A program made the translations under genes and the position numbers. The notes beneath the pieces were generated by a model, which was not told the DNA's origin, ran no database searches, and saw nothing but the letters and a program-made list of their open reading frames with translations. A DNA stretch of 48,089 bases from NCBI GenBank assembly GCA_902534325.1, contig CACAPQ010000016.1, positions 1 to 48,089 on the forward strand, given 5' to 3'. Shown here in pieces: positions 11,212 through 39,968 of this stretch (the stretch's first letter is position 1; the number at the start of each line of letters is the position of its first letter). Source of the DNA: Paracoccaceae bacterium (GTDB taxonomy: Bacteria > Pseudomonadota > Alphaproteobacteria > Rhodobacterales > Rhodobacteraceae).

Positions 11212-11261
11212 TTTAATCACCCATAATCATAAATACGAGAATAAAACACTCGTTGTTATAA

Positions 11262-11291
11262 CTGATACGGAGTGACGTTTCTGTTGGATCA
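11262..11291 (-). promoter_or_regulatory. Putative RpoE-type (ECF) promoter of rpoHII
   Basis: On the minus strand TGATCC (11286-11291) is followed by an 18-base spacer and TATCAG (11262-11267), ending about 50 bp before the rpoH start. TGATCC is the -35 hexamer of the RpoE/ChrR singlet-oxygen regulon in Rhodobacter relatives, where rpoHII is a direct target. The -35 is exact and the -10 approximate. Confidence 0.5.
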
Positions 11292-11360
11292 CTTTTGAAA
11301 CTTGCAATCAAAAGAAACGAAATGATCTACCACTTACAAAATATTGTTTGAGCTAGAATG

Positions 11361-11388
11361 AAAAAAATGCTTCGGTAAATTTTTACGG
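11361..11388 (-). terminator. Weak candidate terminator after gshB
   Basis: On the minus strand an imperfect stem (CCGTAAA against TTTACCG with one mismatch, 11373-11388) is followed by five bases and then a run of seven T (11361-11367). It lies 21 bp after gshB and before the rpoH promoter, where a terminator would make sense. The stem is short and AT-rich, so the call is weak. Confidence 0.3.
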
Positions 11389-11408
11389 ACAAATTTATTT
11401 TGGAAAAC

Positions 11409-12347: not shown

Positions 12348-12420
12348 AGGCTAATCTCATTATATCCTGAATATTTGAAGGACTGATTTTTTTATACCAC
12401 CAATTTCAAAGGTAAACAAT

Positions 12421-22553: not shown

Positions 22554-23552
22554 ATGAATATCGTTACGAAATTGTTGTCAGCCGGAGTTGGCTTGACCAT
22601 GAGTGCAGGTATAGCTTTAGCCGAACCCGCCATTATTTTTGATCTTGGGGGAAAATTTGATAAGTCCTTCAACGAGTCTGCATTTACCGGAGCGCAGCGC
22701 TGGGCAGATGAAACAGGAGGATCCTTCAGAGAAATTGAACTTCAAAATGAAGCACAGCGTGAACAGGCTTTGCGTAGATTTGCAGAGGCTGGAGCTAACC
22801 CAATTGTAATGGCTGGCTTTGCATTTGCTGATTCACTTGGTAAGGTTGCACCAGATTATCCAGATACAAAGTTTGCTGTTATCGACGTAAACTGGCTAAG
22901 TTTACCAAACGTGAGAGGCATTGGCTTCAATGAGCACGAAGGCTCATATTTGGTTGGAATGCTCGCAGCACAGGCATCGAAGACAGGAACAGTTGGTTTT
23001 GTAGGTGGTATGGATATACCTCTAATCAGGCGTTTTGGATGCGGGTATGCACAAGGCGTAATGGCAGTAAATCCTAATGCTACCGTTATAGCTAATATGA
23101 CTGGAACGACACCTGCTGCATGGAACGATCCAGTAAAAGGTTCTGAGCTTACAAAAGCCCAAATTAGCCAAGGTGCAGATGTGGTTTATGCTGCCGCAGG
23201 CGGTACAGGTGTAGGTGTTTTACAAACAGCTGCCGATGAGGGCATTTTATCTATAGGTGTTGATGCAAACCAGAACTATCTACACCCAGGGAAAGTGTTA
23301 ACCTCAATGCTGAAGCGTGTTGATAATGCTGTTTATGAAGCGTTTTCTGCTGGAGAAAATTTAGAAACTGGAAATTTTCAAATGGGTATAGCCAACGGCG
23401 GAGTAGGTTATGCATTAGACGAGCATAATGCTTCCTTAGTATCTGACGCTATGAAATCTGCAGTTGATGCAGCATCAGCTTCAATAGCAAATGGATCAAT
23501 GAAAGTTCATAACTACACCGATGATGAGTCTTGCCCAGCCATTTCATTCTAA
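22554..23552 (+). CDS. BMP family (PnrA/Med-like) periplasmic nucleoside-binding protein
   Basis: A 332-residue solute-binding protein with an N-terminal signal peptide ending near ALA (residues 21-23). The mature protein begins EPAIIFDLGGKFDKSFNE, the family's opening, and has GIGFNEHEGSYLVGMLAA and FVGGMDIPLIRRFGCGYAQG, which line the nucleoside pocket in PnrA-type proteins. The following ATPase and two permeases complete the importer. Known members bind purine nucleosides or related bases, and the precise ligand is not fixed by sequence. A terminator-like hairpin separates it from the ATPase gene. Confidence 0.92.
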   Translation: MNIVTKLLSAGVGLTMSAGIALAEPAIIFDLGGKFDKSFNESAFTGAQRWADETGGSFREIELQNEAQREQALRRFAEAGANPIVMAGFAFADSLGKVAPDYPDTKFAVIDVNWLSLPNVRGIGFNEHEGSYLVGMLAAQASKTGTVGFVGGMDIPLIRRFGCGYAQGVMAVNPNATVIANMTGTTPAAWNDPVKGSELTKAQISQGADVVYAAAGGTGVGVLQTAADEGILSIGVDANQNYLHPGKVLTSMLKRVDNAVYEAFSAGENLETGNFQMGIANGGVGYALDEHNASLVSDAMKSAVDAASASIANGSMKVHNYTDDESCPAISF

Positions 23553-23571
23553 TAGGTGTAAAAATACTAGT

Positions 23572-23601
23572 AAAAACCGCGCCATTTCAGGTGCGGTTTT
23601 T
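23572..23601 (+). terminator. Intrinsic terminator/attenuator between binding-protein and ATPase genes
   Basis: AAAAACCGC (23572-23580) pairs with GCGGTTTTT (23593-23601) around a 12-base loop, forming a 9 bp stem ending in a T run. It lies 19 bp after the binding-protein gene and 19 bp before the ATPase gene. It would lower expression of the membrane components relative to the binding protein. Confidence 0.8.
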
Positions 23602-23620
23602 ATATTAAATTGAGAAATAA

Positions 23621-25162
23621 ATGACTAAAAACCCAGCGATCGAATTAAGACAAATATCTAAATCCTTTGGTCCTGTTCAAGCAAACAAAGATATTACTAT
23701 CCGCGTGATGCCTGGAACAATTCATGGAATTATTGGAGAAAATGGTGCTGGGAAGTCAACCTTAATGTCCATTTTATATGGATTTTACAAGGCTGATGCA
23801 GGGGAAATTTTTGTTGATGGCAAAAAAATTTCCATACCGGATAGCCAAGCGGCAATAGCTGCAGGAATCGGAATGGTTTTCCAACATTTTAAGCTAGTTG
23901 AGAACTTTTCAGTTCTTGAAAATATTATTCTCGGTGCAGAAAGTGGAGCTCTTTTATCCCCTTCTCTTAGCAAAGCCAGAGCCGAACTTGCAGCGTTGGC
24001 AGCAGAATATGAGCTAAATGTAGATCCTGATTCCATAATTGAGGATATTGGGGTTGGAATGCAGCAACGAGTAGAAATTCTTAAAGCTCTTTACCGACAA
24101 GCAAATATTTTAATTTTGGATGAACCTACAGGCGTTTTAACCCCAGCTGAGGCGGATCAGCTTTTCAGAATACTCAAGCGGCTACGCGAAGAAGGCAAGA
24201 CAATTATTTTAATCACTCATAAGCTCCGAGAAATTATGGACATTACAGATACAGTGAGCGTAATGCGCCAGGGCGAAATGACAGCCACCTTGAGAACTGA
24301 CAATACTAGTCCCGAGGATTTGGCAGAACTTATGGTTGGAAGAAAAGTTCTACTTCGCGTTGATAAAACGCCTGCAAAGCCCACAAAGCCAGTGCTTGAA
24401 ATACAAAACCTAAGTATGGTCGATGATTTTGGCGTGCAAAGATTAAAAAATATTAACCTGACTGTAAAAGCAGGGGAAATACTTGGTATTGCTGGTGTCG
24501 CGGGGAATGGTCAGTCAGAGCTTTTACAAGTCTTGGGGGGCTATAGCGCCGCTACAGGTATTATTAAATTAAATGGATCAGAAATAGACTTATCAACCAG
24601 TGTATCTGGCGATGGTCAAGCAAGACGGGCACTAGGGATGGCACATGTGCCCGAGGATAGACAACGCGAAGGTCTAATAATGGACTTTATGGCGTGGGAA
24701 AATGCAGTTTTTGGTTACCACCGTGAAAAATCCAACCAGGTAAATCGATTTTTTATGGATAATAATGCAATTAGACAAGAGACCGAAGAGAAAATGAAGC
24801 GGTTTGATGTTAGGCCTCCTAACCCAAAACTAACCGCAAAAAATTTTTCAGGTGGAAATCAACAAAAAATAGTTTTGGCCCGTGAAATTGAACGCAATCC
24901 AGACTTACTGCTTGTGGGGCAACCAACTCGGGGAGTTGATATTGGGGCCATTGAATTTATACATCAACAGATTGTTGCACTACGCGACCAAGGAAAAGCC
25001 ATTTTGCTTATATCCGTAGAATTGGATGAAATATTGTCCCTATCAGATAGAGTCCTTGTCATGTTCGATGGAGCGATTATGGGAGAGAGAAATCCGGCAA
25101 AGACAAATGAAAAAGAACTAGGGCTTTTGATGGCTGGTGTTTCTGAAAAAGCGGCTCAATGA
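23621..25162 (+). CDS. Tandem-domain ABC transporter ATPase (nucleoside/BMP importer)
   Basis: A 513-residue protein with two ABC domains, like RbsA/XylG/YufO. Domain 1 has Walker A GENGAGKST, Walker B ILILDEPTGVLTP and a degenerate signature, VGMQQRVEI. Domain 2 has a degenerate Walker A (GVAGNGQSELL), a good signature, FSGGNQQKI, and VGQPTRGVDIGA, where glutamine replaces the catalytic glutamate. This asymmetry is normal for the family, in which only one site hydrolyses efficiently. It is followed after 40 bp by the permeases. Confidence 0.94.
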   Translation: MTKNPAIELRQISKSFGPVQANKDITIRVMPGTIHGIIGENGAGKSTLMSILYGFYKADAGEIFVDGKKISIPDSQAAIAAGIGMVFQHFKLVENFSVLENIILGAESGALLSPSLSKARAELAALAAEYELNVDPDSIIEDIGVGMQQRVEILKALYRQANILILDEPTGVLTPAEADQLFRILKRLREEGKTIILITHKLREIMDITDTVSVMRQGEMTATLRTDNTSPEDLAELMVGRKVLLRVDKTPAKPTKPVLEIQNLSMVDDFGVQRLKNINLTVKAGEILGIAGVAGNGQSELLQVLGGYSAATGIIKLNGSEIDLSTSVSGDGQARRALGMAHVPEDRQREGLIMDFMAWENAVFGYHREKSNQVNRFFMDNNAIRQETEEKMKRFDVRPPNPKLTAKNFSGGNQQKIVLAREIERNPDLLLVGQPTRGVDIGAIEFIHQQIVALRDQGKAILLISVELDEILSLSDRVLVMFDGAIMGERNPAKTNEKELGLLMAGVSEKAAQ

Positions 25163-25202
25163 TGTATTATAATCCTGAAAATGACTGTAGTGGAGCACGC
25201 AA

Positions 25203-26300
25203 ATGGATATAATGCCACGATGGGTCGATATAATAATCGTGCCCTTGTTATCTTTGTTTTTAGCAGCTTTTTTATCTGCATTACTCATTATAGCAATTGG
25301 TGAAAGTCCAATAGCAGCCCTAAATCTTATGATTGAAGGTACGTTACTTCGATCTGCAGGCTGGGGCTATATGCTTTATTACACTACAAATTTTATTTTT
25401 ACTGGCCTTGCTGTTTCAGTGGCTTTTCATGCTGCACTTTTTAATATTGGAGGAGAAGGTCAAGCTATGATCGGAGGCTTGGGAGTAGCCCTAGTTTGCT
25501 TGTTCATTCCATGGCCACACTGGACATTAGCCATAGTTGGTGCTTCGGTTGGGGCTGCTCTTTTTGGTATGATTTGGGCTGGTTTGCCTGCTTATCTGCA
25601 AGCAAAAAGAGGCAGCCACATCGTAATTACCACTATTATGTTTAATTTCATCGCGGCAGGGGTGCTAAATTTCTTTTTGGTAGACGTTTTAAAACCAAAA
25701 GGAAGCATGGATCCTGCATCCGCCAACTTTCCATCGACTACTCATCTCCCCACCTTCCAAGATCTAGCGAGCTTATTTGGGTTTGAAAAAGCTTTCAGAT
25801 CTGCACCTGCAAATGTGAGTTTTTTTATTGCACTTTTGGCCTGCGTCGCCGTTTGGTATCTGATTTGGCGTTCTCCACTAGGATATGAAATTAGAGCTTT
25901 GGGGAAATCTGGACCAGCGGCGCGCTATGCAGGTGTTAGACCTGTAAAAATAATAATGATAGCGATGATGATCTCGGGTGCATTATGTGGAATGATGGCA
26001 ATAAATACAACGCAAGGTGAAAGTGAGCGCCTTATTTTGAATTTTACCGAAGGTGCCGGTTTTATTGGCATCGCAGTTGCTCTAATGGGCCGGAGCCATC
26101 CTTTAGGGGTTCTATTGGCTGCTTTGTTATTTGGCTTTCTATACCAAGGCGGTGCCGAATTAGCCCTTTGGACTAAAATACCCCGTGAACTAATAGTAGT
26201 AATTCAAGCTTTAGTGATACTATTTACGGGAGCCCTAAGTTTGATGGTGAGAGCTCCACTTGAAAGGTTTTTTATGTCTCTTCAGAAGGCAAAAGAATGA
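25203..26300 (+). CDS. ABC transporter permease, BMP/nucleoside type (first subunit)
   Basis: A 365-residue inner-membrane permease of the YufP/NupP type with about nine to ten hydrophobic segments. The conserved FHAALFNIGGEGQAMIGG loop and GYEIRALGKSGPAARYAGV coupling segment, followed by GALCGMMA, are typical of the BPD_transp_2 family. It overlaps the second permease by 4 bp (ATGA), so the two are coupled. It would form the heterodimeric channel with the next gene product. Confidence 0.93.
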   Translation: MDIMPRWVDIIIVPLLSLFLAAFLSALLIIAIGESPIAALNLMIEGTLLRSAGWGYMLYYTTNFIFTGLAVSVAFHAALFNIGGEGQAMIGGLGVALVCLFIPWPHWTLAIVGASVGAALFGMIWAGLPAYLQAKRGSHIVITTIMFNFIAAGVLNFFLVDVLKPKGSMDPASANFPSTTHLPTFQDLASLFGFEKAFRSAPANVSFFIALLACVAVWYLIWRSPLGYEIRALGKSGPAARYAGVRPVKIIMIAMMISGALCGMMAINTTQGESERLILNFTEGAGFIGIAVALMGRSHPLGVLLAALLFGFLYQGGAELALWTKIPRELIVVIQALVILFTGALSLMVRAPLERFFMSLQKAKE

Positions 26301-27439
26301 TTGACTTTTTAACCCTACTTCAGGTTTTAGATAGTTCATTGCGCCTCGCCACACCTTTGTTATTGGTGTGCTTGGCAGGCTTATTTTCTGAACGCGCAGG
26401 TATTTTTGACATTGGGCTCGAAGGAAAACTTTTAGCTGCAGCGTTTGTGTCTGCAGCATTCGCAGCAATAACGGGATCTGTCTGGCTAGGTCTTTTAGCA
26501 GGCATATTAGCATCAATTATGTTATCATTACTTCACGGATTAGCATCAATTACACTCCGCGGCGATCAAATAATATCAGGCGTAGCAATAAATTTTCTAG
26601 CAGCAGGCCTGACCGTAGTAGTAGCGCAAGATTTGTTTGGACAAGGAGGTCGAACACCACCTTTAAAGTCAGGCGGCAGGTTCGAACCAATAAATTTTCC
26701 AGGGGCTACGTCGTCAAAAGGAATTAATGATGCAGGTCCATTAATGCAGCTTTACTCAGAACTCTTTTCCGGACACTCTCTTCTTGTTTATGTTGCACTG
26801 CTTACGGTGCCTTTATCATGGTTTATACTTTACAAAACGAGATATGGACTTCGCTTACGCGCCGTTGGCGAAAATCCTGCTGCAGTTGATACAGCGGGAA
26901 TATCAGTTGTAGGATTGCGATATAGTGCAGTTATTATAGGGGGCGTTTTGTGCGGCATTGCAGGTGCATATATCGCAACTTCCCTTCAGGCTAACTTTAC
27001 AAAAGATATGTCTGCGGGACGTGGTTTTATTGCATTGGCAGCCTTAATTTTTGCTAAGTGGCGTCCTTGGTATGCACTTAGCGCATGTTTATTATTTGGT
27101 TTTTTCTTCGCAGTAGATACTCGATTTCAGAACATACTATTACCAGCTTGGTCACTGAGTGGATTTCTAATACTCATAGCGCTAGGGTTGTTGAGCTATG
27201 TTTGGAGAAAGGATTATTTAGACAAAGTGGTACTTGGAGGTTTAGCCCTTGGAATTTCGACTATTGCAATCATGATTGTTTTCTCAGTTTGGAATACTGG
27301 AGCTAGCAGCCAAATTAAAATCCCTGTCGTCTTCATACAATCACTTCCTTATGTTCTAACAGTAGTGGTTTTGGCAGGGTTTGTTGGGAAAGCTATTCCT
27401 CCTCGGGCAGGCGGGCAACCATATGTAAAAGAACGTTAG
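26297..27439 (+). CDS. ABC transporter permease, BMP/nucleoside type (second subunit)
   Basis: A 380-residue partner permease of the YufQ/NupQ type. FSERAGIFDIGLEGKLL near residue 30 and YGLRLRAVGENPAAVDTAGI are family landmarks, with GARGGFIALA-like sequence (SAGRGFIALAALIFAKW) after them. The C-terminus is longer than in many homologs, with two or three extra hydrophobic segments beyond residue ~300, a form common in roseobacters. It is the last gene of the importer operon and is convergent with the SDR gene. Confidence 0.92.
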   Translation: MIDFLTLLQVLDSSLRLATPLLLVCLAGLFSERAGIFDIGLEGKLLAAAFVSAAFAAITGSVWLGLLAGILASIMLSLLHGLASITLRGDQIISGVAINFLAAGLTVVVAQDLFGQGGRTPPLKSGGRFEPINFPGATSSKGINDAGPLMQLYSELFSGHSLLVYVALLTVPLSWFILYKTRYGLRLRAVGENPAAVDTAGISVVGLRYSAVIIGGVLCGIAGAYIATSLQANFTKDMSAGRGFIALAALIFAKWRPWYALSACLLFGFFFAVDTRFQNILLPAWSLSGFLILIALGLLSYVWRKDYLDKVVLGGLALGISTIAIMIVFSVWNTGASSQIKIPVVFIQSLPYVLTVVVLAGFVGKAIPPRAGGQPYVKER

Positions 27440-28812: not shown

Positions 28813-29898
28813 CTAAAAACTAATCACTTTTCCAGTTTCAGCAGAAACCTGCGCCGCGTGGCCCATTCTAACCGCCCAGATACCATCTTCTAGAGTAACT
28901 TCTGGAGATATTTTCCCATCAACCACAAGCATGAATCTTTGATGCTGGTAAAAGGTAGAACCATGATGATCGCCAGCATCCAATAGCTTTTTATCCACGG
29001 GCACCTCTAGTTCCTTTAAACCAGACTTATCTCTAGGACTGATAACTATTTTTGATATTGGAGGAGTCCCAAGTTTTTTCGGCCAAAACCTAGCAGGTCC
29101 TGGAATAAAAGTCTCAATTTTACCAGCTTCGCCTGTGACTGATATCTCTTCTTGATACTTAGCTCCTTCTGCAAACATACAAAGTTCCAGCATAGCTCTA
29201 ATATTATTTTCAAACTCAACAATAACATACCCGTGATCCCAAATATCTGGCACCAATCCCGAGTAATTCTCTTTTAGGTGGTTAACGGCCTGCCCCCCAC
29301 TCGCCATTATTTTAGTTGGATTAGACTTTGTTATTAACCTCATCAAGTCAAAAAAATGGCAACACTTTTCAACAAATGTTCCCCCACTATTTCTATTGAA
29401 TCTGTTCCAATTATCAACTTTAGGAAGAAAGGGAAATCTATGCTCACGAATGGAAAGCATTTTGATATCACCAGTTACATTTTTTTGCTGCGTAATGAGT
29501 TGTTCTATTGGTGGCATATATCGATATTCCATAGCCACCCAAACCGGTGCTGTATATTTGGCTAAGAAGTGTTTTATTCTCTCCAAGTGATTGATGTTAG
29601 CGAATAAAGGTTTTTCTACTAAAATTGGCTTATGAGGGACATTAGCTAATTGTTCCAACTGATCCATGTGAAGATGATTTGGCGACACTATTAACCAGCA
29701 GTCAATGTTTTCGTCACTCAAAATTTTATCAAGAGAGTTATGAAACTTGGCCTCTGGTGCAAGTGCTTTTGCCATTTTCCGCATATTTGGATTAGGTTCA
29801 TAAACTGCATAAGTTAAAGCATCATCGATTAAATTTATATTGCGGAGATGCTCCTGTCCCATCATTCCACAACCTATAATTCCATACCTTTTTTTCAT
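28813..29898 (-). CDS. Gfo/Idh/MocA family protein; candidate NAD-dependent sulfoquinovosidase (GH188-like)
   Basis: A 361-residue protein with an N-terminal Rossmann domain (GCGMMG, residues 9-14), the EKP motif (95-97) in ILVEKPLF, and the C-terminal Gfo/Idh domain with FVEKCCHFFDLMRLI (H181 and D184). The fold would permit sugar oxidation or, as in GH109/GH188 enzymes, NAD-dependent glycoside cleavage through transient C3 oxidation. The reason to suspect sulfoquinovosidase activity is context: it is divergent from SmoC/B/A-like genes, and GH188 enzymes are reported in roseobacter sulfoquinovose clusters lacking GH31. A simple sugar dehydrogenase remains possible. I chose ATG 29898 for its AGGA site and conserved MKKRYGIIG opening. 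Confidence 0.72.
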   Translation of the reverse strand: MKKRYGIIGCGMMGQEHLRNINLIDDALTYAVYEPNPNMRKMAKALAPEAKFHNSLDKILSDENIDCWLIVSPNHLHMDQLEQLANVPHKPILVEKPLFANINHLERIKHFLAKYTAPVWVAMEYRYMPPIEQLITQQKNVTGDIKMLSIREHRFPFLPKVDNWNRFNRNSGGTFVEKCCHFFDLMRLITKSNPTKIMASGGQAVNHLKENYSGLVPDIWDHGYVIVEFENNIRAMLELCMFAEGAKYQEEISVTGEAGKIETFIPGPARFWPKKLGTPPISKIVISPRDKSGLKELEVPVDKKLLDAGDHHGSTFYQHQRFMLVVDGKISPEVTLEDGIWAVRMGHAAQVSAETGKVISF

Positions 29899-29905
29899 AA
29901 CGGTC

Positions 29906-30607
29906 CTAACTAATACGGGTCGTATAGCGCGCAATATTTGTATCAATCCAACTTCGCGAAAACTCTACAGCAGCTCCAGACTGATCGTAAGCCAAACGCT
30001 CTATACAAACTGTTTCTTGAAAATTCATTATTTTAAACTCCTTAGGAGACCAAACAGGCACTGGAAGTAAGGTGGTGCTATCTTTGGCTGAAGTAATGCG
30101 TAAATTTAGGATATCTTTATAAAACAGATAAATAGATTGTGAAATATTATCAAATGTATGCCCGTCAATTTTAGTCGAGTCTAAATTTATTTCTTCTAAC
30201 ACGCACGGTAGATCGTCTAGGGATCGTAATCGCCTTATCCTCAGGCATTTATCTGATTCTCCAAAAAACGGCGCGTTTTTTGGTTTTTTAACCAGATTGA
30301 TATCTAAATTTTTCGCTGAAGGTAAACCTCCACCGTCGATCAGTTCGACTCTAAAAAACGAGTAAATAGAATTAAATTTCGTATTAAATTTTATATAATT
30401 TCCAGAACCATGCCTCCTAAATAGAGCACCTTTTTGTTCAAGGTCTTTCAAAGCTTTTCGCAATGTTCCAACAGAAATATTGAGAGATTTAGCTAAATGT
30501 CTTTCGGGCAGTAGACGTTCACCATCCGATAAACGACCTACTATTATTTCTCGCATAAGCATTTCACTAATTTGGATATAAACTGGTAAAGAGGTGGCTT
30601 CAGACAT
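29906..30607 (-). CDS. GntR family transcriptional regulator with UTRA domain (HutC subfamily)
   Basis: A 233-residue regulator. The N-terminal winged helix (about 5-72) has LPVYIQISEMLMREIIVGRL, the GERLLPERHLAKSLNISVGTLRKAL recognition helix region and a GSGNYIKF wing. The C-terminal UTRA domain (about 90-230) would bind a small effector, often a sugar or sugar phosphate. It lies 7 bp upstream of the Gfo/Idh gene in the same operon and divergent from the monooxygenase operon, so it most likely controls both by binding the 90 bp between them. Confidence 0.9.
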   Translation of the reverse strand: MSEATSLPVYIQISEMLMREIIVGRLSDGERLLPERHLAKSLNISVGTLRKALKDLEQKGALFRRHGSGNYIKFNTKFNSIYSFFRVELIDGGGLPSAKNLDINLVKKPKNAPFFGESDKCLRIRRLRSLDDLPCVLEEINLDSTKIDGHTFDNISQSIYLFYKDILNLRITSAKDSTTLLPVPVWSPKEFKIMNFQETVCIERLAYDQSGAAVEFSRSWIDTNIARYTTRIS

Positions 30608-30697
30608 GCTTTCAAAATGTAAGTAATTTCAAAATTGATACACCATTGATTTACATATGTTGGAATGCTACGCAAGACTTAAGATAAGGGGAAGCCT
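30608..30697. promoter_or_regulatory. Divergent regulatory region between gntR and the monooxygenase operon
   Basis: This 90 bp gap must hold both promoters and the likely GntR operator. Visible structure: ATGTAA (30617-30622) and TTACAT (30651-30656) are inverted arms enclosing a direct repeat ATTGAT-N5-ATTGAT (30634-30639 and 30645-30650). An AGGGG ribosome site precedes the plus-strand gene. None of these is a proven operator. Confidence 0.35.
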
Positions 30698-31852
30698 ATG
30701 ACCGTCGTGCCAATAACATCTGCTGACTTAAGAGCTGCGGAAGTTTCTTGGTTCTCAGCTTTATGCTCCGACGATTACCAATTTTTAGGGGTTCCTGATG
30801 GAAATCTTCGCAGTTCCTGGGAACATTGTAGTTCAATCGTAAAAGAGGCAGAAAATTATGGATTCCGAAATATTCTATGCCCATCATCTTATCAAGTTGG
30901 ACAAGACACATTGAGCTTTGTAGCTGGCTGCGCACCAATAACCGAAAAAATTAATATGCTTGCTGCAGTAAGGTGCGGTGAAATGCAACCTATTATGCTT
31001 GCCCGAACTATCGCCACCTTAGATCACATGATGAAAGGCCGCTTGACAATTAACATTATTAGTTCTGATTTTCCCGGGGAAAAAGCTGAAAGTGGATATC
31101 GATATCAACGTTCAAGAGAAGTAGTGGAAATTTTGAAACAAGCCTGGATCCAAGATGAGATTAATTATGTAGGTGAAATATACAACTTCTCAGGTCTTAC
31201 AACAGAACCTTCAAAGCCATTTCAAATTGGAGGACCGCTGCTTTATTTTGGGGGCTATTCTCCACCAGCTCTTGAGTTATGCGGGCAACATTGTGATGTC
31301 TATCTGATGTGGCCTGAACCCAAAGAACAAATAATTGGGCGGATGAAATCTGTAAATGAGGTGGCTGAAAAATATAATAGAACCCTCGATTATGGTCTGC
31401 GTGTTCATATGATTGTTAGAGATACCGAAATAGAAGCCAAAGAATATGCTGAGTATATAGTATCAAGGCTAGAAGATGACTTCGGAAAAAAAATAATAGA
31501 ACGTGCTCAAGATAGCTCTTCATTGGGAGTCTCTCACCAAGCAAAAAATAGACAAATTTCGGATGAATTTGGTTATGTCGAACCTAATCTTTGGACAGGA
31601 GTGGGTAGAGCAAGATCTGGATGTGGTGCTGCTATTGTTGGATCAACTGATCAAGTGATGAGTGAATTAGAGCAATATCAGAAATTAGGAATTCGCTCTT
31701 TTATCTTATCTGGATACCCCCACCTTGAAGAATGCAAACATTTTGGCTCGAAAGTCTTGCCAAATATAAAAACTTGCTCTTTACCGCATGTATATGGCCG
31801 AGTTCCCAATAATATACCTTCAACTCCACTAGGACTAGGACAGCGTAACTAA
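30698..31852 (+). CDS. smoC: SsuD-like FMNH2-dependent monooxygenase; probable sulfoquinovose monooxygenase (SmoC-like)
   Basis: A 384-residue luciferase-like monooxygenase. Residues matching the alkanesulfonate monooxygenase active site are kept: C61, R235 and H237 (GLRVHMIVRD), R306 (GRARSGCG) and Y340 (SGYPHLEE). It should therefore cleave a C-S bond of a sulfonate using FMNH2 and O2, releasing sulfite and an aldehyde. The next two genes supply an aldo-keto reductase and a flavin reductase, which is the enzyme set of the sulfoquinovose monooxygenase pathway (sulfoquinovose to 6-oxo-glucose to glucose). An ordinary alkanesulfonate substrate is the alternative, but no ssu transporter is present. 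It overlaps the next gene by 1 bp. Confidence 0.8.
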   Translation: MTVVPITSADLRAAEVSWFSALCSDDYQFLGVPDGNLRSSWEHCSSIVKEAENYGFRNILCPSSYQVGQDTLSFVAGCAPITEKINMLAAVRCGEMQPIMLARTIATLDHMMKGRLTINIISSDFPGEKAESGYRYQRSREVVEILKQAWIQDEINYVGEIYNFSGLTTEPSKPFQIGGPLLYFGGYSPPALELCGQHCDVYLMWPEPKEQIIGRMKSVNEVAEKYNRTLDYGLRVHMIVRDTEIEAKEYAEYIVSRLEDDFGKKIIERAQDSSSLGVSHQAKNRQISDEFGYVEPNLWTGVGRARSGCGAAIVGSTDQVMSELEQYQKLGIRSFILSGYPHLEECKHFGSKVLPNIKTCSLPHVYGRVPNNIPSTPLGLGQRN

Positions 31853-32742
31853 TGGAAAGAATTAAAATCAGTTCATCTCTGACAATGTCGCGTTTGGTAT
31901 ACGGAATGTGGCGATTAAGTGATGACGAAAACACATCGCCCAATCATGTAAGAAATAAAATCGCAAGTTGTTTGGATCAAGGAATAACTTCCTTTGATCA
32001 GGCCGATATTTATGGCGGTTATGAAGCTGAAGAAATTTTAGGAAATGCGCTTAAAAGTTCAAATCTCCGTCAAAAAATGGAAATTGTTACCAAATGCGAT
32101 ATCGTAGCTCCAGTGGGTAGATATGAAAGTGCCCGGGTTAAGTATTATGATACGTCAAGAGATCATATTCTAAATTCAGTAGATTCATCTTTAAAACTAA
32201 TGGGTATCGATTACATCGATTTGCTTTTGCTCCATAGGCCAGACCCATTGATGAACCACTTTGAAACTGGTGCTGCTCTTGATGAGATAATTGCCTCTGG
32301 GAAAGTAAAAAATGTGGGTGTTTCAAACTTTAGACCTTGGGATTGGAATTTATTGCAAACTGGGATGAAAAACAAACTCGTCACCAACCAAATTGAGTTA
32401 AGCGTGCTAGCACATGATGGCTTCACTAATGGAGATGTCGCATTTCACCAAAGTAATAATACTCCCATTATGGCATGGTCTCCTTTAGCCGGAGGAGACT
32501 TATTTTTGAAATCGAACAAAAAGATTGTAAGTCAACTTGAAAGTATAGGGAAAATATTTGGCGTCGAACCAGGAACGGTCGCTGTGGCCTGGTTGCTTGG
32601 GCACCCGGCTAATATTCTACCCGTATTGGGAACAAACTCATTGGCTAGAATAGAGACAATTTCAAAAGCCATAGAGGTTAAATTAGATAGGCAAACCTGG
32701 TTTGAAATTTACACAGCCGCGCTTGGGCGCGAAATTGCGTAA
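31852..32742 (+). CDS. smoB: Aldo-keto reductase, probable 6-oxo-glucose reductase (SmoB-like)
   Basis: A 296-residue TIM-barrel aldo-keto reductase with the catalytic tetrad D49, Y54, K81 and H128 (FDQADIYGGYEAEEILG, VTKCDI, LLLHRPDP). The N-terminal LSRLVYGMWRL-type opening (here MSRLVYGMWRL), HVRNKIASCLDQGI and the ending RQTWFEIYTAALGREIA resemble the SmoB enzyme of the sulfoquinovose monooxygenase pathway, which reduces 6-oxo-glucose to glucose with NAD(P)H. It is also broadly like YdhF-type AKRs. Its position between the monooxygenase and flavin reductase genes strongly supports the SmoB role. TAATG coupling joins it to the gene before. Confidence 0.82.
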   Translation: MERIKISSSLTMSRLVYGMWRLSDDENTSPNHVRNKIASCLDQGITSFDQADIYGGYEAEEILGNALKSSNLRQKMEIVTKCDIVAPVGRYESARVKYYDTSRDHILNSVDSSLKLMGIDYIDLLLLHRPDPLMNHFETGAALDEIIASGKVKNVGVSNFRPWDWNLLQTGMKNKLVTNQIELSVLAHDGFTNGDVAFHQSNNTPIMAWSPLAGGDLFLKSNKKIVSQLESIGKIFGVEPGTVAVAWLLGHPANILPVLGTNSLARIETISKAIEVKLDRQTWFEIYTAALGREIA

Positions 32743-32763
32743 TGACAGTGGAAGTAAATTTTC

Positions 32764-33225
32764 ATGATTAATTTAGATGAGTTCAGATTTGCCTTAGGTA
32801 AATATGTAACTGGGATCACAATTGTTACTTGTAATAGTGGAAATGGTCCTATCGGAATTACAGCCAATAGCTTTTCAAGCCTGTCCTTATCCCCTCCATT
32901 GGTGCTATGGGCACCTGCGAAAGCTTCTCAAAGGCATGATACTTTTTTAGAAGCCGAGAAATTTATTGTTCATATTGCTAGCGAAAATCAAATTGAGCTT
33001 TGTAAAAGCTTCTCAAAGAGTGCAAATGGAGGAAGTGAATTGATTTGGGCTTATAATGATGAAGGTGATGCATTCATCGAAAATTGTTCGGCACGTTTTG
33101 AATGTATAAAATACAATCACTTCGATGGAGGTGATCACTCAATCATAGTGGGAGAAGTCAATAAGTTTGAAACTACGGATCATAAACCGTTAGTTTATTT
33201 AGGGGGAAATTACAGAAAAATTTAA
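32764..33225 (+). CDS. smoA: Flavin reductase (FMN:NAD(P)H oxidoreductase), SmoA-like
   Basis: A 153-residue flavin reductase of the split-barrel FMN-binding family. FRFALGKYVTGITIVTC at the N-terminus, PIGITANSFSSLSLSPPLVLWAP in the FMN site, and DHSIIVGEVNKFE with PLVYLGGNYRKI at the end are all standard. It would supply FMNH2 to the monooxygenase two genes upstream. It follows the aldo-keto reductase by 21 bp with its own GGAAG ribosome site, and no further gene follows in this operon before the agl promoter region. Confidence 0.88.
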   Translation: MINLDEFRFALGKYVTGITIVTCNSGNGPIGITANSFSSLSLSPPLVLWAPAKASQRHDTFLEAEKFIVHIASENQIELCKSFSKSANGGSELIWAYNDEGDAFIENCSARFECIKYNHFDGGDHSIIVGEVNKFETTDHKPLVYLGGNYRKI

Positions 33226-33327
33226 TTTGTGATAAAAATTCAGAAATATGAAGACAATAATTCAAATAGTTTTTTGTTTTTATATAACTAAACTTTTTAT
33301 ATTTGACCTGCGTTAAATTTTAGAGTT

Positions 33328-33341
33328 TGGTAGCGCTATCA
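33328..33341. promoter_or_regulatory. LacI-family operator 1 upstream of the agl operon
   Basis: TGGTAGCGCTATCA matches the LacI-family form TGnnAnCGnTnnCA and is nearly palindromic around GCGC. It lies ~96 bp before aglE. In relatives the alpha-glucoside operon is repressed by the LacI-type AglR, but no lacI-family gene is in the window. Confidence 0.65.
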
Positions 33342-33352
33342 ACAGTGTAAAT

Positions 33353-33437: not shown

Positions 33438-34781
33438 ATGAAACTTAATACTAAAACTTTAAGCATCACAGCTGCTATATCCTTGGGCTTTGGCTCAATG
33501 GGTGTCGCAGGCTCTCACGATGTTTGCAATACGCCTTCTAAATTAGGCGACATGGGAAGCTTTCCCGGTGAAGTCATAACTATGCAAGGATCAATGCTGG
33601 GCACTGACCAAGAAATGTTAGAAAATACCATCAGTTGCTTTGAAAAAGCAACTGGTGCAAAAGTTCAATATTCTGGTTCTCGCGATTTTGCAGCTTTAGT
33701 AGTTGCCGATATGCGTTCAAACAACCCACCTAACATTTCTATCTTTCCACAGCCAGGTCTTGCCGCTGATATGGCAGCAGAAGGCCACTTAATTCCCATT
33801 GGAGACGAAGCAGCAGCATGGATGAAAGACAATTATGGTGCAGGTTCATCTTGGGTAGATCTTGGCACTTATAAAGATCCTGATGGTAATGATCAATTCT
33901 ACGGTTTTGCCTTTAAAATGGATTTAAAATCACTTGTTTGGTATTCACCAGAGCAATTTGAAGACAACGGCTATGAAATTCCATCCACGATGGAAGAACT
34001 TATTGCTCTGTCAGATCAGATGGTAGCTGATGGAAATACACCTTGGTGTATTGGTGTCGAGTCTGGGAATGCTACAGGTTGGACCGCGACCGACTGGATG
34101 GAAGACATCATGCTGCGTACTACCTCTGCTGAAAACTATGACCGTTGGGTTTCAAATGACCTGGCCTTTAATAGTCCAGAAGTGATTAATGCTATGGAAC
34201 TTTATGGTCAATTCTCTCGAAATGATGATTATGTTGCAGGTGGCGCAGCTTCTGTAGCGACTACTTCATTTGGTGATGCGCCAAAAGGATTGTTCACATC
34301 ACCCCCGAGTTGCATGATGCACCGTCAAGCTTCATTCATTACTGGATTTTTCCCTGATAAGGGTGAAGAAGTTGCACGCGGTGAAGCAGATGCATTTTAT
34401 TTTCCACCTTTCGCATCTGGAAACTTAGGAAATCCAGTTCTTGGTGCTGGAACTTTGTATACTATGGCGAAAGATTCTCCTGCTACACGTGCATTCTTTA
34501 AGTATTTGCAAGAAGCCTCAGCACATGAAGCTTGGATGCAGCAAGGTGTATTCCTTACCGCTCATAAAGGTGCTGACTTAAGTGCTTACGCAACACCGCT
34601 ATTAAGAAAGCAAGGTGAAATCCTAGCAAATGCTACTACATTTCGCTTTGATGCATCAGATTTAATGCCTGGTGCTATCGGTGCTGGCGCTTTCTGGAGT
34701 GAAATGACCGCATTTGCAAACGGTCAGGATGCAAAAACTACTGCTAACAATATTCAAGCAGCTTGGGACGCTATAAAATAA
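33438..34781 (+). CDS. aglE: Alpha-glucoside ABC transporter substrate-binding protein (AglE-like)
   Basis: A 447-residue periplasmic binding protein of the carbohydrate CUT1 class. It has an N-terminal signal peptide (hydrophobic core at about residues 8-22, cleavage near VAGS). The mature protein follows the AglE pattern: GEVITMQGSMLGTDQEMLENTISCFEKATGAKVQYSGSRDF, with a late aromatic/acidic region FRFDASDLMPGAIGAGAFW. Family members bind sucrose, maltose, trehalose and other glucosides. A GGGAGG ribosome site precedes the start. A hairpin separates it from aglF. Given the upstream desulfonation genes, sulfoquinovosides are a speculative additional ligand. Confidence 0.9.
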   Translation: MKLNTKTLSITAAISLGFGSMGVAGSHDVCNTPSKLGDMGSFPGEVITMQGSMLGTDQEMLENTISCFEKATGAKVQYSGSRDFAALVVADMRSNNPPNISIFPQPGLAADMAAEGHLIPIGDEAAAWMKDNYGAGSSWVDLGTYKDPDGNDQFYGFAFKMDLKSLVWYSPEQFEDNGYEIPSTMEELIALSDQMVADGNTPWCIGVESGNATGWTATDWMEDIMLRTTSAENYDRWVSNDLAFNSPEVINAMELYGQFSRNDDYVAGGAASVATTSFGDAPKGLFTSPPSCMMHRQASFITGFFPDKGEEVARGEADAFYFPPFASGNLGNPVLGAGTLYTMAKDSPATRAFFKYLQEASAHEAWMQQGVFLTAHKGADLSAYATPLLRKQGEILANATTFRFDASDLMPGAIGAGAFWSEMTAFANGQDAKTTANNIQAAWDAIK

Positions 34782-34802
34782 TATAGCAATACAATTTTGA
34801 TG

Positions 34803-34827
34803 GGAGCACAGCTAAAACCTGTGCTCC
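34803..34827 (+). other. Perfect stem-loop between aglE and aglF
   Basis: GGAGCACAG (34803-34811) and CTGTGCTCC (34819-34827) form a 9 bp perfect stem with a 7-base loop. There is no T run after it, so it probably protects the aglE mRNA 3' end or partly attenuates, as in malE-malF, and is less likely to act as a full terminator. Confidence 0.8.
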
Positions 34828-34856
34828 TATTCTGTCAGTTTGGGTCAAACATTTAA

Positions 34857-36110
34857 ATGCGTTCTGTTCAATCTATAATTTTCAGTAATAGCTTAGCCAT
34901 CGTTCTCACGATAGTTTGCGTATTACCAATTACTGCTGTCTTTGTATTTTCTCTAACTGCCCCCATTGACGACGCTTTTGCAAATTTTGGCCTTTGGCTT
35001 CACAATAAATATGGATGGTCTGTAGCAACTTTTGTAACAGAATTAAGATTTGCAAAAGTTGGTTTTGCTTTACGTTCTGTTGTAATCGCTTTGTTTATCT
35101 CATTTTTATATTATTGGATCACAAACTGGCTTAACTTTGGGCTAGCAAATTTCAGATCAAGTAAATCCATCGGAAAAAGATCCATCATCGCGGAAGCAAT
35201 TCAGCCATGGATATTTGTAGGGCCTGCACTTATTTTACTCCTGCTGTTTCTACTAATCCCAGCACTTGCAACTTTAAAAATATCTTTCACAGAACCTGAT
35301 GGGACGGCTTCAGTTAGCAATTATGCTTTTCTTTGGGACCCTAGCGCTTTGGGGTATCTTCAATTTAGATTTGCCATGAGAAACAGTTTAATGTGGTTAA
35401 TTTTGGTACCTTCGCTTTGCATAATTTTTGGATTATTGATTGCCGTTTTAGCAGACTCTGTGCGCTGGGGTGTAGTTGCAAAAACTTTTATTTTTGTGCC
35501 CTTAGCCATTTCATTTGTTGGAGCAGCAGTAATTTGGCGAAATATTTTTGCTGGCGGTGGTATCGAACCTCAAGAAGCGATAAATGGGGTCACACCTTCA
35601 TACCAAATAGGTCTTTTGAAAGCCCTTTTAGGGCATACGCCTGAATATAACGAGCCTCTTTATAATTTAAAATTTTGGGGCAATTTTTACCTAATGTGGA
35701 TCATGGTTTGGATAAAAACCGGTTTTGCTATGGTTATTTTTTCTGCTGCCTTAAGAGGTGTCCCACAAGAGACAGTAGAAGCCGCCATTATCGACGGAGC
35801 AAACCCGAGACAACTTTTCTTTAGAGTGAAATTACCTCAAATTTTTTCAACAGTTGTTGTGGTATGGACCTACCTTGTTACGGATGTATTAAAGGTTTTT
35901 GATATTCCCTACGCGCTTTCCGCTAATGATGACGACAAGCTTCTGCTTGCCACGATGATGGAAGCCGCAATGAACACATGGTCTATAGGTGGCAACAATG
36001 TTGATAATTTATTTGCCGCTATAGCGGTTATGCTGATGCTAACAGTTATACCTCATATGATTTTTCTTGGTTGGCGTATTCGGCGCGAACAAAAGCTGTT
36101 GGAACAATAG
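34857..36110 (+). CDS. aglF: Alpha-glucoside ABC transporter permease AglF
   Basis: A 417-residue MalF-type permease. Two hydrophobic segments in the first ~100 residues precede the permease core. The ATPase-coupling EAA loop is EAAIIDGANPRQLFFRVKLPQI, near residues 310-330. The extended N-terminus compared with ~300-residue sugar permeases is typical of AglF. It pairs with AglG, 14 bp downstream, to form the membrane channel. Confidence 0.92.
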   Translation: MRSVQSIIFSNSLAIVLTIVCVLPITAVFVFSLTAPIDDAFANFGLWLHNKYGWSVATFVTELRFAKVGFALRSVVIALFISFLYYWITNWLNFGLANFRSSKSIGKRSIIAEAIQPWIFVGPALILLLLFLLIPALATLKISFTEPDGTASVSNYAFLWDPSALGYLQFRFAMRNSLMWLILVPSLCIIFGLLIAVLADSVRWGVVAKTFIFVPLAISFVGAAVIWRNIFAGGGIEPQEAINGVTPSYQIGLLKALLGHTPEYNEPLYNLKFWGNFYLMWIMVWIKTGFAMVIFSAALRGVPQETVEAAIIDGANPRQLFFRVKLPQIFSTVVVVWTYLVTDVLKVFDIPYALSANDDDKLLLATMMEAAMNTWSIGGNNVDNLFAAIAVMLMLTVIPHMIFLGWRIRREQKLLEQ

Positions 36111-36124
36111 GGATTTGACTGCTC

Positions 36125-37351
36125 ATGTATAGTCGTTCGTTTGCTCACATAATACTCGCTATTATCCTTGTAATCTGGGTAGTGCCTTTCGTAGCCCTTA
36201 TCACAACTTCATTTAGATCAGAAATTGCATCTAAAACTTCAGGCTTTTGGACAGCATTCACTCCAACAGAACTCGGGCACCGTTTCAGTACACATGATAA
36301 AGGCGAGCAGGCCACAATAACGGAAATGCGGGGTAACATTTTCAAACGCATAAACAAAGATGAAGAATGGTTTCAAATATCCGGAGAGATTAATTCCATA
36401 ATGTTTAAAGGTCGAGTTCCCGACCCTGACAAACCCGGGAAAACCAAGCTAATCCGGAAACTTGTGCCTGCCGGTGAAGTCATGGATGTCAGAGGGGGTG
36501 AATTCGTTTTCCAAGCTAATGGTGATTTTGTTTGGTCATTTCCGGAAGAAGTTGCGCCAAAACCGAAAAACCTTGATGTTTTCATAAATCAAGACCCCGT
36601 ATTTGGCACGGAAGCCTATTTTGAAGTTTTATTAGATAATAAAGACGTACCTAACGCCTTGATTTCTTCCTTTATAGTTGTTGTCCCGGCAACAATCATT
36701 CCAATAACAGTCGCTGCTTTTGCTGCTTATGCCTTTTCATGGATGCGGTTTCCAGGCAGGGATTGGTTATTCATAATTGTAGTTTCGCTGATGGTAGTCC
36801 CAACGCAATTAGCTTTTTTACCAATACTTCAAGGCTTTAACGGAATTGCCACATGGGCGACGGCTCTAAAACAATGGACAACGGACTGTGAATTAACAAA
36901 TTCATGTCAATTCCCAACGAAATCATTTGCGGGTTTGTGGCTTACACATACAGGCTTTGGTCTTCCTCTCGCTATATTTCTTTTACGAAATTATATTGTT
37001 GGATTACCTAGAGAATTGCTCGAGAGCGCCAAAATTGATGGAGCCAATCATATGCAAATTTTCGTAAAAGTAGTTGTTCCGCTTTCAGTACCAGCGCTTG
37101 CTTCGTTCAGTATATTTCAGTTCCTCTGGATCTGGAATGATTTATTGGTAGCCATGTTTGTTGGCCCCAGCGAAAATGACAATATAGTTTTCCCTATTTT
37201 GTTGGAGCGACAGTTGGGAACTTTTGGAGACCAACTTCACCTGCTCAACGCATCAGCCGTAATCTCCATGGTAGTTCCAGTGATAGTATTTCTTGCTATG
37301 CAAAAATATTTTATTAGGGGTTTGCTCGCTGGATCCGTCAAGGGAGGTTAG
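36125..37351 (+). CDS. aglG: Alpha-glucoside ABC transporter permease AglG
   Basis: A 408-residue MalG-type permease. A first membrane helix (about 5-28) is followed by a ~140-residue hydrophilic periplasmic insert (about 30-175), then the permease core with EAA motif ESAKIDGANHMQIFVKVVVPL. MalG proteins are normally ~280-300 residues; the insert is a known feature of the AglG subgroup and may contact the binding protein. A gap of 3 bp separates it from the glucosidase gene. Confidence 0.92.
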   Translation: MYSRSFAHIILAIILVIWVVPFVALITTSFRSEIASKTSGFWTAFTPTELGHRFSTHDKGEQATITEMRGNIFKRINKDEEWFQISGEINSIMFKGRVPDPDKPGKTKLIRKLVPAGEVMDVRGGEFVFQANGDFVWSFPEEVAPKPKNLDVFINQDPVFGTEAYFEVLLDNKDVPNALISSFIVVVPATIIPITVAAFAAYAFSWMRFPGRDWLFIIVVSLMVVPTQLAFLPILQGFNGIATWATALKQWTTDCELTNSCQFPTKSFAGLWLTHTGFGLPLAIFLLRNYIVGLPRELLESAKIDGANHMQIFVKVVVPLSVPALASFSIFQFLWIWNDLLVAMFVGPSENDNIVFPILLERQLGTFGDQLHLLNASAVISMVVPVIVFLAMQKYFIRGLLAGSVKGG

Positions 37352-37354
37352 TGA

Positions 37355-38923
37355 ATGTCTTCTTTAAAATGGTGGGAACACGCTGTCATTTATCAAATTT
37401 ACCCCAGATCATTTCAGGACTCAAACTCTGATGGAATTGGTGATCTCAATGGGATCATATCAAGGTTGAAATATATTGCAGACCTGGGTGTCGATGCCAT
37501 TTGGATCAGTCCATTTTTTATGTCCCCTCAACATGACTTTGGGTATGATGTATCTAACTATTGTGATATAAATCCAGAATATGGAAATCTTAGTGATTTC
37601 GATCAATTAATTGAGAAAACACACGAGCTCGGCTTACGCCTTATGATAGATATTGTTCCAGCTCACTGTTCTTACCTACACCCTTGGTTTGAAGAAAGCC
37701 GAAAATCAAAAGACAACTCAAAATCTGATTGGTTTCACTGGGTCGATCCAAAACCTGACGGTTGTCCACCAAATAATTGGTTATCTTTTTTTGGTGGTCC
37801 CGCATGGTCATGGGAGCCTAGGAGGCAACAATACTATTTACATAATTTTTTGCCAGAACAACCAAACTTAAACCATGCAAATCAAGAAGTGCAAGAAGAG
37901 TTAAATAATGTCGCTAGGTTTTGGTTTGACCGGGGCGTTGATGGATTCAGATTAGATGCAGTACATACAATTAATGGAGACTGTGAACCATATAAGGATA
38001 ATTTGGCGGACCCCAACTTCACCCTCGGCCCCTTGCCACAAGATAAACAACCATTCTTTAGGCAACTGCATGATGTTGCTCAACTTAATCAACCTGTGAT
38101 CCAGAAGTTTAGTGAAGCATACAGAAGAATTGCGGATGAATATGAAGGTGATCGCTTTCTTATGGGAGAGGTTAATGGTGATGAAGGCAATGCTATGACT
38201 GTTAGCAAAACATTTTCGGAACCGGGCAGACTTCACGCTACTTATAATTTTGATCTTCTAGAGTGGACCGGTTTAAGCGTTTCAGAAATCAAAGGTGCGA
38301 TTGCAAATGCAATAGAGGCATTTAATGGTTCAGGCAGACTGTGTTTTGCTTTTTCAAACCATGACGTCCCCCGCTCAGCTAGTCGACAGTTAAGCCCACT
38401 TGGCATAACTTTAGACAAACAAGATGATTTGCAATTGTTACTCCTTCAGCTCGAAACATCACTGATTGGCTCCTCCTGCATTTATCAGGGAGAGGAATTA
38501 GGATTGTCGGACGTCACAAATATTCAATTTGGCGAAATGAAAGATCCATGGGGATTAAACTTTTATCCTGAGTTCTTAGGCAGAGATACGTGCCGTACCC
38601 CCATGGTTTGGGAAAAGAACAAGCCAATGGGAGGCTTCACATTAGCAAATGAGGCTTGGCTACCAATATCAGAACTTCACATGGAAAAAGCTGGCTTGGA
38701 CATGGCAAAAAGTGAAGGATCAATCTACAATAAATTTTCTAGTTTCCTTAAATGGCGCAGAAAACAACCTGCAATGATATCATCAAATAAAATGTCTGAA
38801 TTATCCGGAGGGCCAAGCGAGATAATTTTTGATAGAGAAAGTGAAACTCAAATACTAAGATGTAAATTTGATTTTGGATTGGTTAAAGCCACCTTTGAAG
38901 AGGTAACACATGGCACAAGTTGA
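37355..38923 (+). CDS. aglA: GH13 alpha-glucosidase (AglA-like)
   Basis: A 522-residue cytoplasmic alpha-amylase-family enzyme that would hydrolyse imported alpha-glucosides. It opens [29 protein letters not shown] as oligo-1,6-glucosidase/alpha-glucosidase types do. The catalytic nucleophile is D201 (GFRLDAVH), the acid/base E272 (GEVNG) and the stabiliser D337 (SNHDVPR). Conserved region I reads DIVPAHCS, with alanine where most GH13 enzymes have asparagine before the histidine, a small oddity. There is no signal peptide. It sits inside the transporter operon and overlaps aglK by 14 bp. Confidence 0.92.
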
Positions 38924-39968
38924 ACTTAAAAATGTCAATAAATCTTTTGGACAAACTAAAGTCATAAAAGATGTTCACTTATCTATAGAAAAGGGCGAAT
39001 TTGTGGTCTTTGTGGGACCTTCGGGTTGTGGAAAATCAACGTTGCTCAGGCTCATCGCAGGCTTAGAAAATTTAAGTGATGGTAAAATTATAATAGCTGA
39101 TCGACCCGTTATGGATTTACCACCCTCAGAAAGAGGTATTGCTATGGTTTTTCAATCATATGCTCTCTACCCACATATGTCTGTTTTCCAGAATATGGCC
39201 TTTTCCTTAAGCCTACAAAAATTTTCTAAAGCTGAAATCAGAACACGTGTTGAAGCTGCCGCTAAAATCCTTCAAATGGAGCATCTTCTTGATCGAAGAC
39301 CAGCAGCACTGTCTGGTGGACAACGTCAGCGTGTTGCTATTGGCAGGGCTATCGTAAGAAATCCTGATGTGTTCTTATTTGATGAACCTTTATCGAATTT
39401 GGACGCTGCGCTTCGGCACGATACACGAGTTGAAATTGCTAAGTTACACAAACAGTTAGATGCAACAACTATATACGTAACCCATGATCAAGTAGAGGCT
39501 ATGACGTTAGCTGATAAAATCGTTGTTTTACGAGACGGTGAAGTCATGCAGGTGGGATCGCCCATGGATTTATTCAATTCACCAGATAATGAATTCGTGG
39601 CTGGCTTTCTTGGATCGCCACAAATGAATTTCTTTGATGGTAGTTTATCAAAAGTTGCAAGAAATGGTTCATCAGGATCTTTCAAAGGTCAAGGCTTTGA
39701 AACTGGTGATATAAGGCTTACTACTCAACAAAAAAATACCAATGATCCTGTGCGCTTAGGTATTCGACCACAACACTTGCAGATAAACGAAAAAGGTAAC
39801 CTAGCAGGTCAAGTGACCCTCGTCGAAAAGCTTGGAACGGAAACCGTAGTTGAATTGATAACTGAAAATGGAACCCCTTTTAGATATGCTGCAGCGGAAA
39901 CACCTGACATAGCTATAGGTGACAACTTAAAATTTGAATTTGAAAGCCGTAGAGCGCACTTATTCTAA
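38910..39968 (+). CDS. aglK: Alpha-glucoside ABC transporter ATPase AglK (MsmK/MalK type)
   Basis: A 352-residue sugar-importer ATPase. Walker A is GPSGCGKST (36-44), signature LSGGQ (134-138), Walker B VFLFDE (154-159) and the switch histidine H192 (VTHDQ). A MalK-like C-terminal OB/TOBE domain follows from about residue 235, with LGIRPQHL. It completes the AglEFGK importer. ATPases of this type are often shared between sugar importers. It is convergent with the enoyl-CoA hydratase gene; no clear terminator is seen in the 28 bp between them. Confidence 0.94.

Follow-up and report, generated by a model that had tools for sequence, protein, structure and literature searches.

How is sulfoquinovose (SQ), a sulfur-containing sugar of plants and algae, set free and brought into the cell at a locus that encodes its oxidative desulfonation and lacks the transporter most often found beside those genes? 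The question is raised by a 48,089-nucleotide stretch of a Paracoccaceae bacterium (GenBank assembly GCA_902534325.1, contig CACAPQ010000016.1, positions 1 to 48,089 of the forward strand), here called the window. A first-pass annotation had described its smoC, smoB and smoA genes as a compact variant of the SQ monooxygenase (sulfo-SMO) pathway that lacks a sulfoquinovosidase; this description proved wrong, the core being of the standard Roseobacter type, with a predicted sulfoquinovosidase of glycoside hydrolase family 188 (GH188). We consider it probable, from gene content and comparison, that the locus is a Roseobacter-type sulfolytic SQ cluster in which an Agl-type ATP-binding cassette (ABC) importer has replaced the tripartite ATP-independent periplasmic (TRAP) transporter and imports SQ or an SQ glycoside. 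The sulfo-SMO assignment we hold with high confidence; the importer exchange is a supported variant, and the function that we infer for it stands about even.

In the proposed scheme, AglEFGK would import SQ or its glycerol glycoside, perhaps along with alpha-glucosides. SqgA, an NAD-dependent GH188 enzyme, would free SQ from sulfoquinovosyl glycerol (SQGro). SmoC, supplied with reduced flavin mononucleotide (FMNH2) by SmoA, would cleave the C-S bond to yield sulfite and 6-dehydroglucose, which SmoB would reduce to glucose. A GntR/UTRA protein would control both divergent units, and the Agl-type importer (AglEFGK with a GH13 enzyme) would have taken the TRAP slot in a small-genome lineage.

The desulfonation core and its predicted sulfoquinovosidase

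The genes smoC (30698..31852), smoB (31852..32742) and smoA (32764..33225) are adjacent, open frames on the plus strand (30698-33225), and we confirmed both their coordinates and their C-B-A order, that of the SQ monooxygenase pathway. SmoC, the predicted FMN-dependent SQ monooxygenase, matched PDB entries 7olf (683 bits; 284/383 identical residues) and 7oh2 (671 bits), which we take to be SmoC structures, their PDB names being generic; MsuD/SsuD-type entries reached only 179-186 bits. An 18-row tree separated SmoC from the three SsuD and the one SfnG included (support 99/98), and the SmoC clade took in a Novosphingobium homologue adjoining an aldo-keto reductase gene; MsuD, absent from the tree, was compared by score only, and branching within SmoC is poorly resolved, with bootstrap values not settled. 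The active-site residues previously named for the monooxygenase (C61, R235, H237, R306, Y340) are all in place. By score and tree, this protein is a SmoC-clade monooxygenase, distinct from SsuD/MsuD.

SmoB, the predicted 6-dehydroglucose reductase of the aldo-keto reductase family, matched 7bby and 7bbz at 397 bits (182/296 identical to 7bby), against 189 for the next best entry; these two generically named entries are presumably SmoB structures. For the D-Y-K-H tetrad that had been read from the sequence, D52, Y54 or Y57, K81 and H128 are present as candidate residues. The third gene, smoA, encodes a flavin reductase (Pfam Flavin_Reduct). SmoB and SmoC thus match SmoB- and SmoC-type structures by a wide margin, the groupings that were to refute the assignment did not occur, and the oxidative desulfonation assignment stands. 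The two genes lie within 10 open reading frames of each other, the rule applied in PMC13372026, and the flavin reductase gene adjoins them.

We compared the core with the best 80 of at least 579 confirmed relatives fetched with SmoC, leaving out the window's own copy (L081) and calling presence by tblastn at E 1e-20 and 40% coverage (identity floors of 40% for aglE and 60% for aglK; one stretch, L022, ends just before smoC). The genes sqgA, gntR, smoB and smoA were found in 78, 79, 80 and 76 of these loci, respectively; each core gene is thus kept in 76 to 80 of 80, beyond chance. Six smo clusters, among these loci and others, have no detectable smoA (L019, L024, L062, L075, L115, L117), so there a flavin reductase must come from elsewhere. 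Near smo in 11 of the 80 loci (L009, L015, L030, L043, L046-L049, L055, L076, L077) there is a YeiH-like gene, and another, annotated as 'putative sulfate exporter family', lies near smo in L126 (16079-17104); it is a possible sulfite exporter.

Divergent from smoC lie a GntR/UTRA regulator and a Gfo/Idh protein, families that Pfam confirmed. The latter (sqgA, 28813..29898, minus strand, 361 aa) has a Gfo/Idh/MocA fold; as listed, its frame starts at a TTG (377 aa) and overlaps gntR; it more probably begins at the ATG at 29898. Its best PDB match was 8zn9 (490 bits), named there only 'Oxidoreductase, putative' and not SqgA, followed by 8qc2 (352) and 8qc3 (342), with the next Gfo/Idh entry at 69 bits. 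PMC10755693 presents 8QC2, 8QC3, 8QC5, 8QC6 and 8QC8 as SqgA, the founders of GH188, which cleaves SQ glycosides with NAD through oxidation at C3, and places the sulfonate site of ArSqgA at Arg166, Leu170 and Lys172; according to PMC11465081, these three positions are 96-98% conserved. The window protein has R155, L159 and K161 at the same spacing, within EHRFPFLPK, and its E178 and H182 are spaced like E189 and H193 of ArSqgA. K97 (in VEKP) is one residue off the spacing expected from ArSqgA K107, and for Y136 and H321 there are two candidate tyrosines (MEYRY) and two candidate histidines (DHHGS). Judged by these matches and motif residues, the Gfo/Idh protein is a GH188-type sulfoquinovosidase, which moves the expected substrate of the locus from free SQ to SQ glycosides.

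That the locus has no GH31 sulfoquinovosidase, as had been noted, was borne out. Genome-wide searches covered the window genome (G000; 2.09 Mb in 74 contigs, 77.8% complete) and eight related assemblies (G001-G008), all as assembled. GH31 gave no match in G000-G005 and one near-cut-off match each in G006-G008 (22.6-24.2 bits, cut-off 23.5). The absence of any sulfoquinovosidase, which had been read from this, falls with the GH188 assignment. In Cognatishimia activa (L072, about 9150-12560), smoC-smoB-smoA and gntR occur with no GH188 gene in the fetched stretch. Cognatishimia is a genus labelled by 13C-SQ (PMC13372026), and this strain may depend on free SQ.

The regulator gene (29906..30607, minus strand; Pfam GntR and UTRA) adjoins smoC in 79 of the 80 loci. 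It probably forms one unit with sqgA, because the likely sqgA ATG lies 7 bases past the gntR stop. Within the gntR-smoC gap, TTGATACACCATTGATTTAC (30635..30654, plus strand) is kept in L001-L008 with few changes, and a site resembling TTGATACACNATTGATYTAC is kept from the window to L006-L008. At up to three mismatches the site has a single match in the window, against a chance mean of 0.05; from this conservation we infer TTGATACACCATTGATTTAC to be a candidate GntR operator.

The core order, sqgA-gntR|smoC-smoB-smoA, is that of an ordinary Roseobacter cluster as described in 2023, on the evidence of gene content, and GH188 is near-universal in Roseobacter sulfo-SMO clusters according to PMC10755693. 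Because the core matches this standard arrangement, the pathway here is already known.

An Agl-type module in the importer slot

The locus had been described as lacking a transporter of its own. This holds for the transporters expected there: the window has no match to TRAP queries or to the other ABC solute-binding protein (SBP23), nor to aglR, GH1, glk and YeiH queries. It fails for ABC sugar importers, one of which, with a GH13 gene (33438-39968), begins 212 bp past smoA, just beyond the stretch that had been considered. All five genes are on the plus strand and in Agl order: an AglE-type solute-binding protein (33438..34781; Pfam SBP_bac_1), AglF-type (34857..36110) and AglG-type (36125..37351) permeases (both BPD_transp_1), the GH13 gene (37355..38923; Alpha-amylase) and an AglK/MalK-type ATPase (38910..39968; ABC_tran, TOBE_2).

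Among the 80 loci, a TRAP large permease or solute-binding protein follows smoA in 55, another ABC solute-binding protein occurs in 7, and none of these importers in 8; 14 of the fetched stretches contain agl genes. No gene was found between smoA and the aglE that comes next in L001-L007, and TRAP is absent from L001-L008. L008 and L115 have aglR on the other strand between the smo genes and aglE, and L062 and L075, also without TRAP, have agl genes further off, behind glk, GH1 and aglR. We also scored the importer slot that comes after smoA or smoB across 85 loci (the 80 plus L115, L116, L117, L120 and L122, the window not counted) and found TRAP in 57, two of which show the small TRAP permease alone, the window's AglE subtype in 10, another ABC solute-binding protein in 3, and none of these in 15.

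A TRAP orthologue was not found in G000-G008, where the best matches reached at most 29% identity for the solute-binding protein and 44% for the large permease; as a yardstick, the identity of these two proteins between L026 and the Ruegeria genome of L036 is 83% and 85%. For L115 (G058) and L116 (G128), TRAP is absent from the fetched stretches, the genome-wide TRAP search having covered G000-G008. AglE occurs in one copy per assembly in G000-G008, at the smo locus. The Agl-type importer is the best candidate for entry of SQ or SQ-glycerol. We also considered the other ABC solute-binding protein (in L076) as SmoF and did not call it so, a PDB search having given weak matches only.

Linkage to smo distinguishes the AglE of the window from its relatives. 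A sample of 120 genomes, each from a different genus, gave SmoC in 47 and AglE in 72; both were present in 41, SmoC only in 6, AglE only in 31 and neither in 42 (Fisher odds ratio 9.3, p = 1.0e-6, without correction for kinship). The two genes lie within 5 kb in 3 of the 41 genomes, those of the window, G058 and G128. The same three, and no others, have an AglE with 82% or more identity to that of the window, the rest of the sample reaching at most 60%. Among the remaining 38 that have both, a single genome places them within 15 kb (G097, canonical AglE, 13 kb, one contig); contig ends can hide linkage in this sample. Since L001-L008 were fetched by SmoC, AglE linkage there is biased, and the unbiased figure is 3/3, the window included. 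Identity to canonical AglE is 50-60%, compared with 63-68% to G418, G136, G258 and L159. In an order-level sample of 390 genomes, which lacks G058 and G128, the next relatives at 63-65% are G418, G136 and G258, and smo genes were not found in the 20-kb stretches around their aglE genes. One genome of the genus sample has two tandem canonical aglE genes (G071:C1:870511-873204), 52% and 51% identical to that of the window.

The smo-linked AglE subtype forms one clade at 100/100 in a tree of 24 rows. In a concatenated SmoC-SmoB-SqgA tree of 30 loci, L115 (G058) groups with L120 at 100/100, apart from the other seven subtype rows, and a single clade for the subtype smo cores was rejected (approximately unbiased test, p = 0.00014); letter composition of the window, L001 and L004 deviates in this tree. 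L026, which has TRAP in the slot and no AglE in its genome, falls within the other group beside L116 (90/89), and the slot of L120 holds another ABC solute-binding protein. With a single AglE clade and split smo cores, the subtype has therefore met at least two different smo cores: these trees suggest that either it joined smo at least twice or the smo core was exchanged beside it.

The GH13 enzyme of the module is nearest in the PDB to 6aav, 3wy1 and 7voh, and trees place it in a lineage unlike canonical AglA (the set is without L008, a cut contig; the last tree, in which long branches meet, is without C_L051 and C_L117). It is under purifying selection, with a ratio of nonsynonymous to synonymous substitution (dN/dS) of 0.06-0.08 against four relatives. 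Set against canonical AglA (10 versus 12 rows), it shows 62 type-specific positions, more than any other protein of the module (AglE has 23), and many lie around conserved regions. Thr203 and Phe206 are conserved in characterised GH13 homologues (PMC8928221), and their equivalents are replaced in the smo-linked GH13. By eye, the equivalents of Asp62, Tyr65, His105, Phe147, Phe166, Arg200 and Asp202 are kept, as are those of the acid Glu, Phe292, the His-Asp pair and Arg396. We rejected the idea that GH13 is a second sulfoquinovosidase: these equivalents are kept, and the motifs of the smo-linked GH13 are common to smo-free GH13 genes (L157-L160). Its residues suggest an alpha-glucosidase, rather than an SQ enzyme, that comes from another lineage and has an altered aglycone site; glucosylglycerol as its substrate is a guess by analogy, from the shared glycerol aglycone. 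In the order-level sample, no GH13 exceeds 50% identity except the window's own copy, the other smo-linked copies lying outside that sample. The nearest smo-free relatives, at 57-58%, are L157 (8934-10511) and L158 (8894-10534), whose flanks match no smo or agl query.

The window also encodes a second ABC set (22554-27439), with a BMP-type solute-binding protein, an ATPase and two permeases, upstream of a short-chain dehydrogenase/reductase and a thioesterase; we take it to be a nucleoside-like importer. Among the 80 loci this set adjoins smo only in L001-L005.

Weighing the alternatives

The most serious alternative is that the module and the core are ordinary neighbours: the Agl genes would be an alpha-glucoside operon that adjoins smo, both would feed glucose catabolism, and SQ would enter by a transporter encoded elsewhere. 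We give this substantial credence, a little short of even. The chief evidence against a dedicated SQ importer is regulatory. The 212-bp smoA-aglE gap holds a LacI-type palindrome, TTGGTAGCGCTATCAA (33327..33342), the only perfect match in the genome, which is kept with small changes in L001-L005 and not in L006-L007. No clear regulon emerged for it in the genome (10 matches at up to two mismatches, both strands counted, versus 7 for the reversed control), and the gap itself yielded no promoter- or terminator-like site. Shared regulation of importer and smo was considered and rejected, the candidate GntR site occurring in the window only before smoC. Given the palindrome and the lack of a GntR-site copy in the gap, the importer is therefore probably a separate transcription unit. 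AglR had no match in the window and an orthologue only in G008 among G000-G008, and in L008 and L115 it still adjoins the module, as an alpha-glucoside operon would have it.

Further observations weigh the same way. Canonical agl genes lie near smo in four loci that keep TRAP (L037, L051, L059, L064), and the co-occurrence of smoC and AglE across genera is what a shared lifestyle would give. AglE, the sole such importer found in the nine assemblies, may simply serve alpha-glucosides. Its predicted model (predicted local distance difference test score 73) resembles generic sugar-binding proteins, and no SmoF was recognised among the 50 structure matches listed; by sequence, the AglE-type protein gave weak PDB matches only, none recognised as SmoF, which was not itself a query. 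L159, from another family, carries AglE (68%), aglF, aglG and GH13 (51%) together on 14 kb that hold no smo genes; this type of module therefore also exists apart from smo. L159 is one of three genomes in a class-level sample of 385 that have GH13 relatives at 46-58%, all on stretches without smo genes. Against mere neighbourhood stand the tight linkage seen only for the diverged subtype (3/3 versus 1/38 within 15 kb) and the fact that this subtype occupies the importer slot next to smo cores of two different kinds. We prefer replacement of TRAP by an SQ-importing Agl module, with a confidence slightly lowered because of L159 and the unseen contig ends.

That the cluster is a remnant, with import lost and the smo genes decaying, would fit the lack of a TRAP orthologue in G000-G008 and is very improbable, since the five core genes (sqgA, gntR, smoC, smoB, smoA) show dN/dS values of about 0.06-0.15 when compared with four close relatives, and all frames are open. 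Least probable of all is that SmoC is a general alkanesulfonate monooxygenase of SsuD/MsuD type that scavenges sulfur: its best NCBIfam match bears that name, at 237.5 bits against a cut-off of 518.2, whereas its PDB scores (683 versus 186 bits), its clade apart from SsuD and the adjoining smoB, smoA and sqgA all speak for SQ.

A broader claim is possible and, in our view, doubtful: the diverged Agl importer would be an SQGro (alpha-glycosyl-glycerol) transporter of ocean Rhodobacteraceae with small genomes, replacing TRAP in one lineage and another ABC importer in a second, and, together with a recruited GH13 of changed aglycone site, would supply SqgA with SQGro and GH13 with an alpha-glucoside, for example glucosylglycerol. 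If the subtype carries SQ or its glycerol glycoside, surveys based on SmoF or TRAP would overlook the importer in lineages like that of HIMB11, the isolate from which L007 comes and which has the same module, and the common annotation 'alpha-glucoside transporter' would be wrong in them. Among the literature matches listed, none pairs sulfoquinovose with HIMB11, TRAP transporter or 'alpha-glucoside transporter'; we do not claim that the arrangement is new in print.

Relation to known systems

SQ pathways occur in 2050 of 21,845 aquatic genomes, with sulfo-SMO prevalent in rhizobial and Roseobacter bacteria (PMC13372026). The closest precedent is the Roseobacter sulfo-SMO cluster with GH188 SqgA (Kaur et al. 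2023, PMC10755693), which has the same core as the window; the window differs in lacking TRAP and in having the Agl ABC importer and GH13 in that place. Ruegeria sp. TM1040 illustrates the standard arrangement, with genes annotated, by family, as Gfo/Idh, GntR, luciferase-like monooxygenase (LLM) oxidoreductase, aldo-keto reductase, flavin reductase, TRAP small and large permeases, and DctP.

With the sulfo-SMO (sulfo-ASMO) pathway of Agrobacterium and Novosphingobium, the window has SmoC, SmoB and SmoA in common. The Agrobacterium system uses a GH31 sulfoquinovosidase and an SQGro ABC importer, SmoE-H with the binding protein SmoF, in place of which the window has a predicted GH188 enzyme and an Agl-type importer. 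The module itself recalls the AglEFGAK alpha-glucoside operon, which has a rhizobial precedent, and shares its order of solute-binding protein, two permeases, GH13 and ATPase. Compared with canonical agl loci (L118, L119, L121, L123-L125), the module of the window lacks AglR and GH1, and its GH13 belongs to another lineage.

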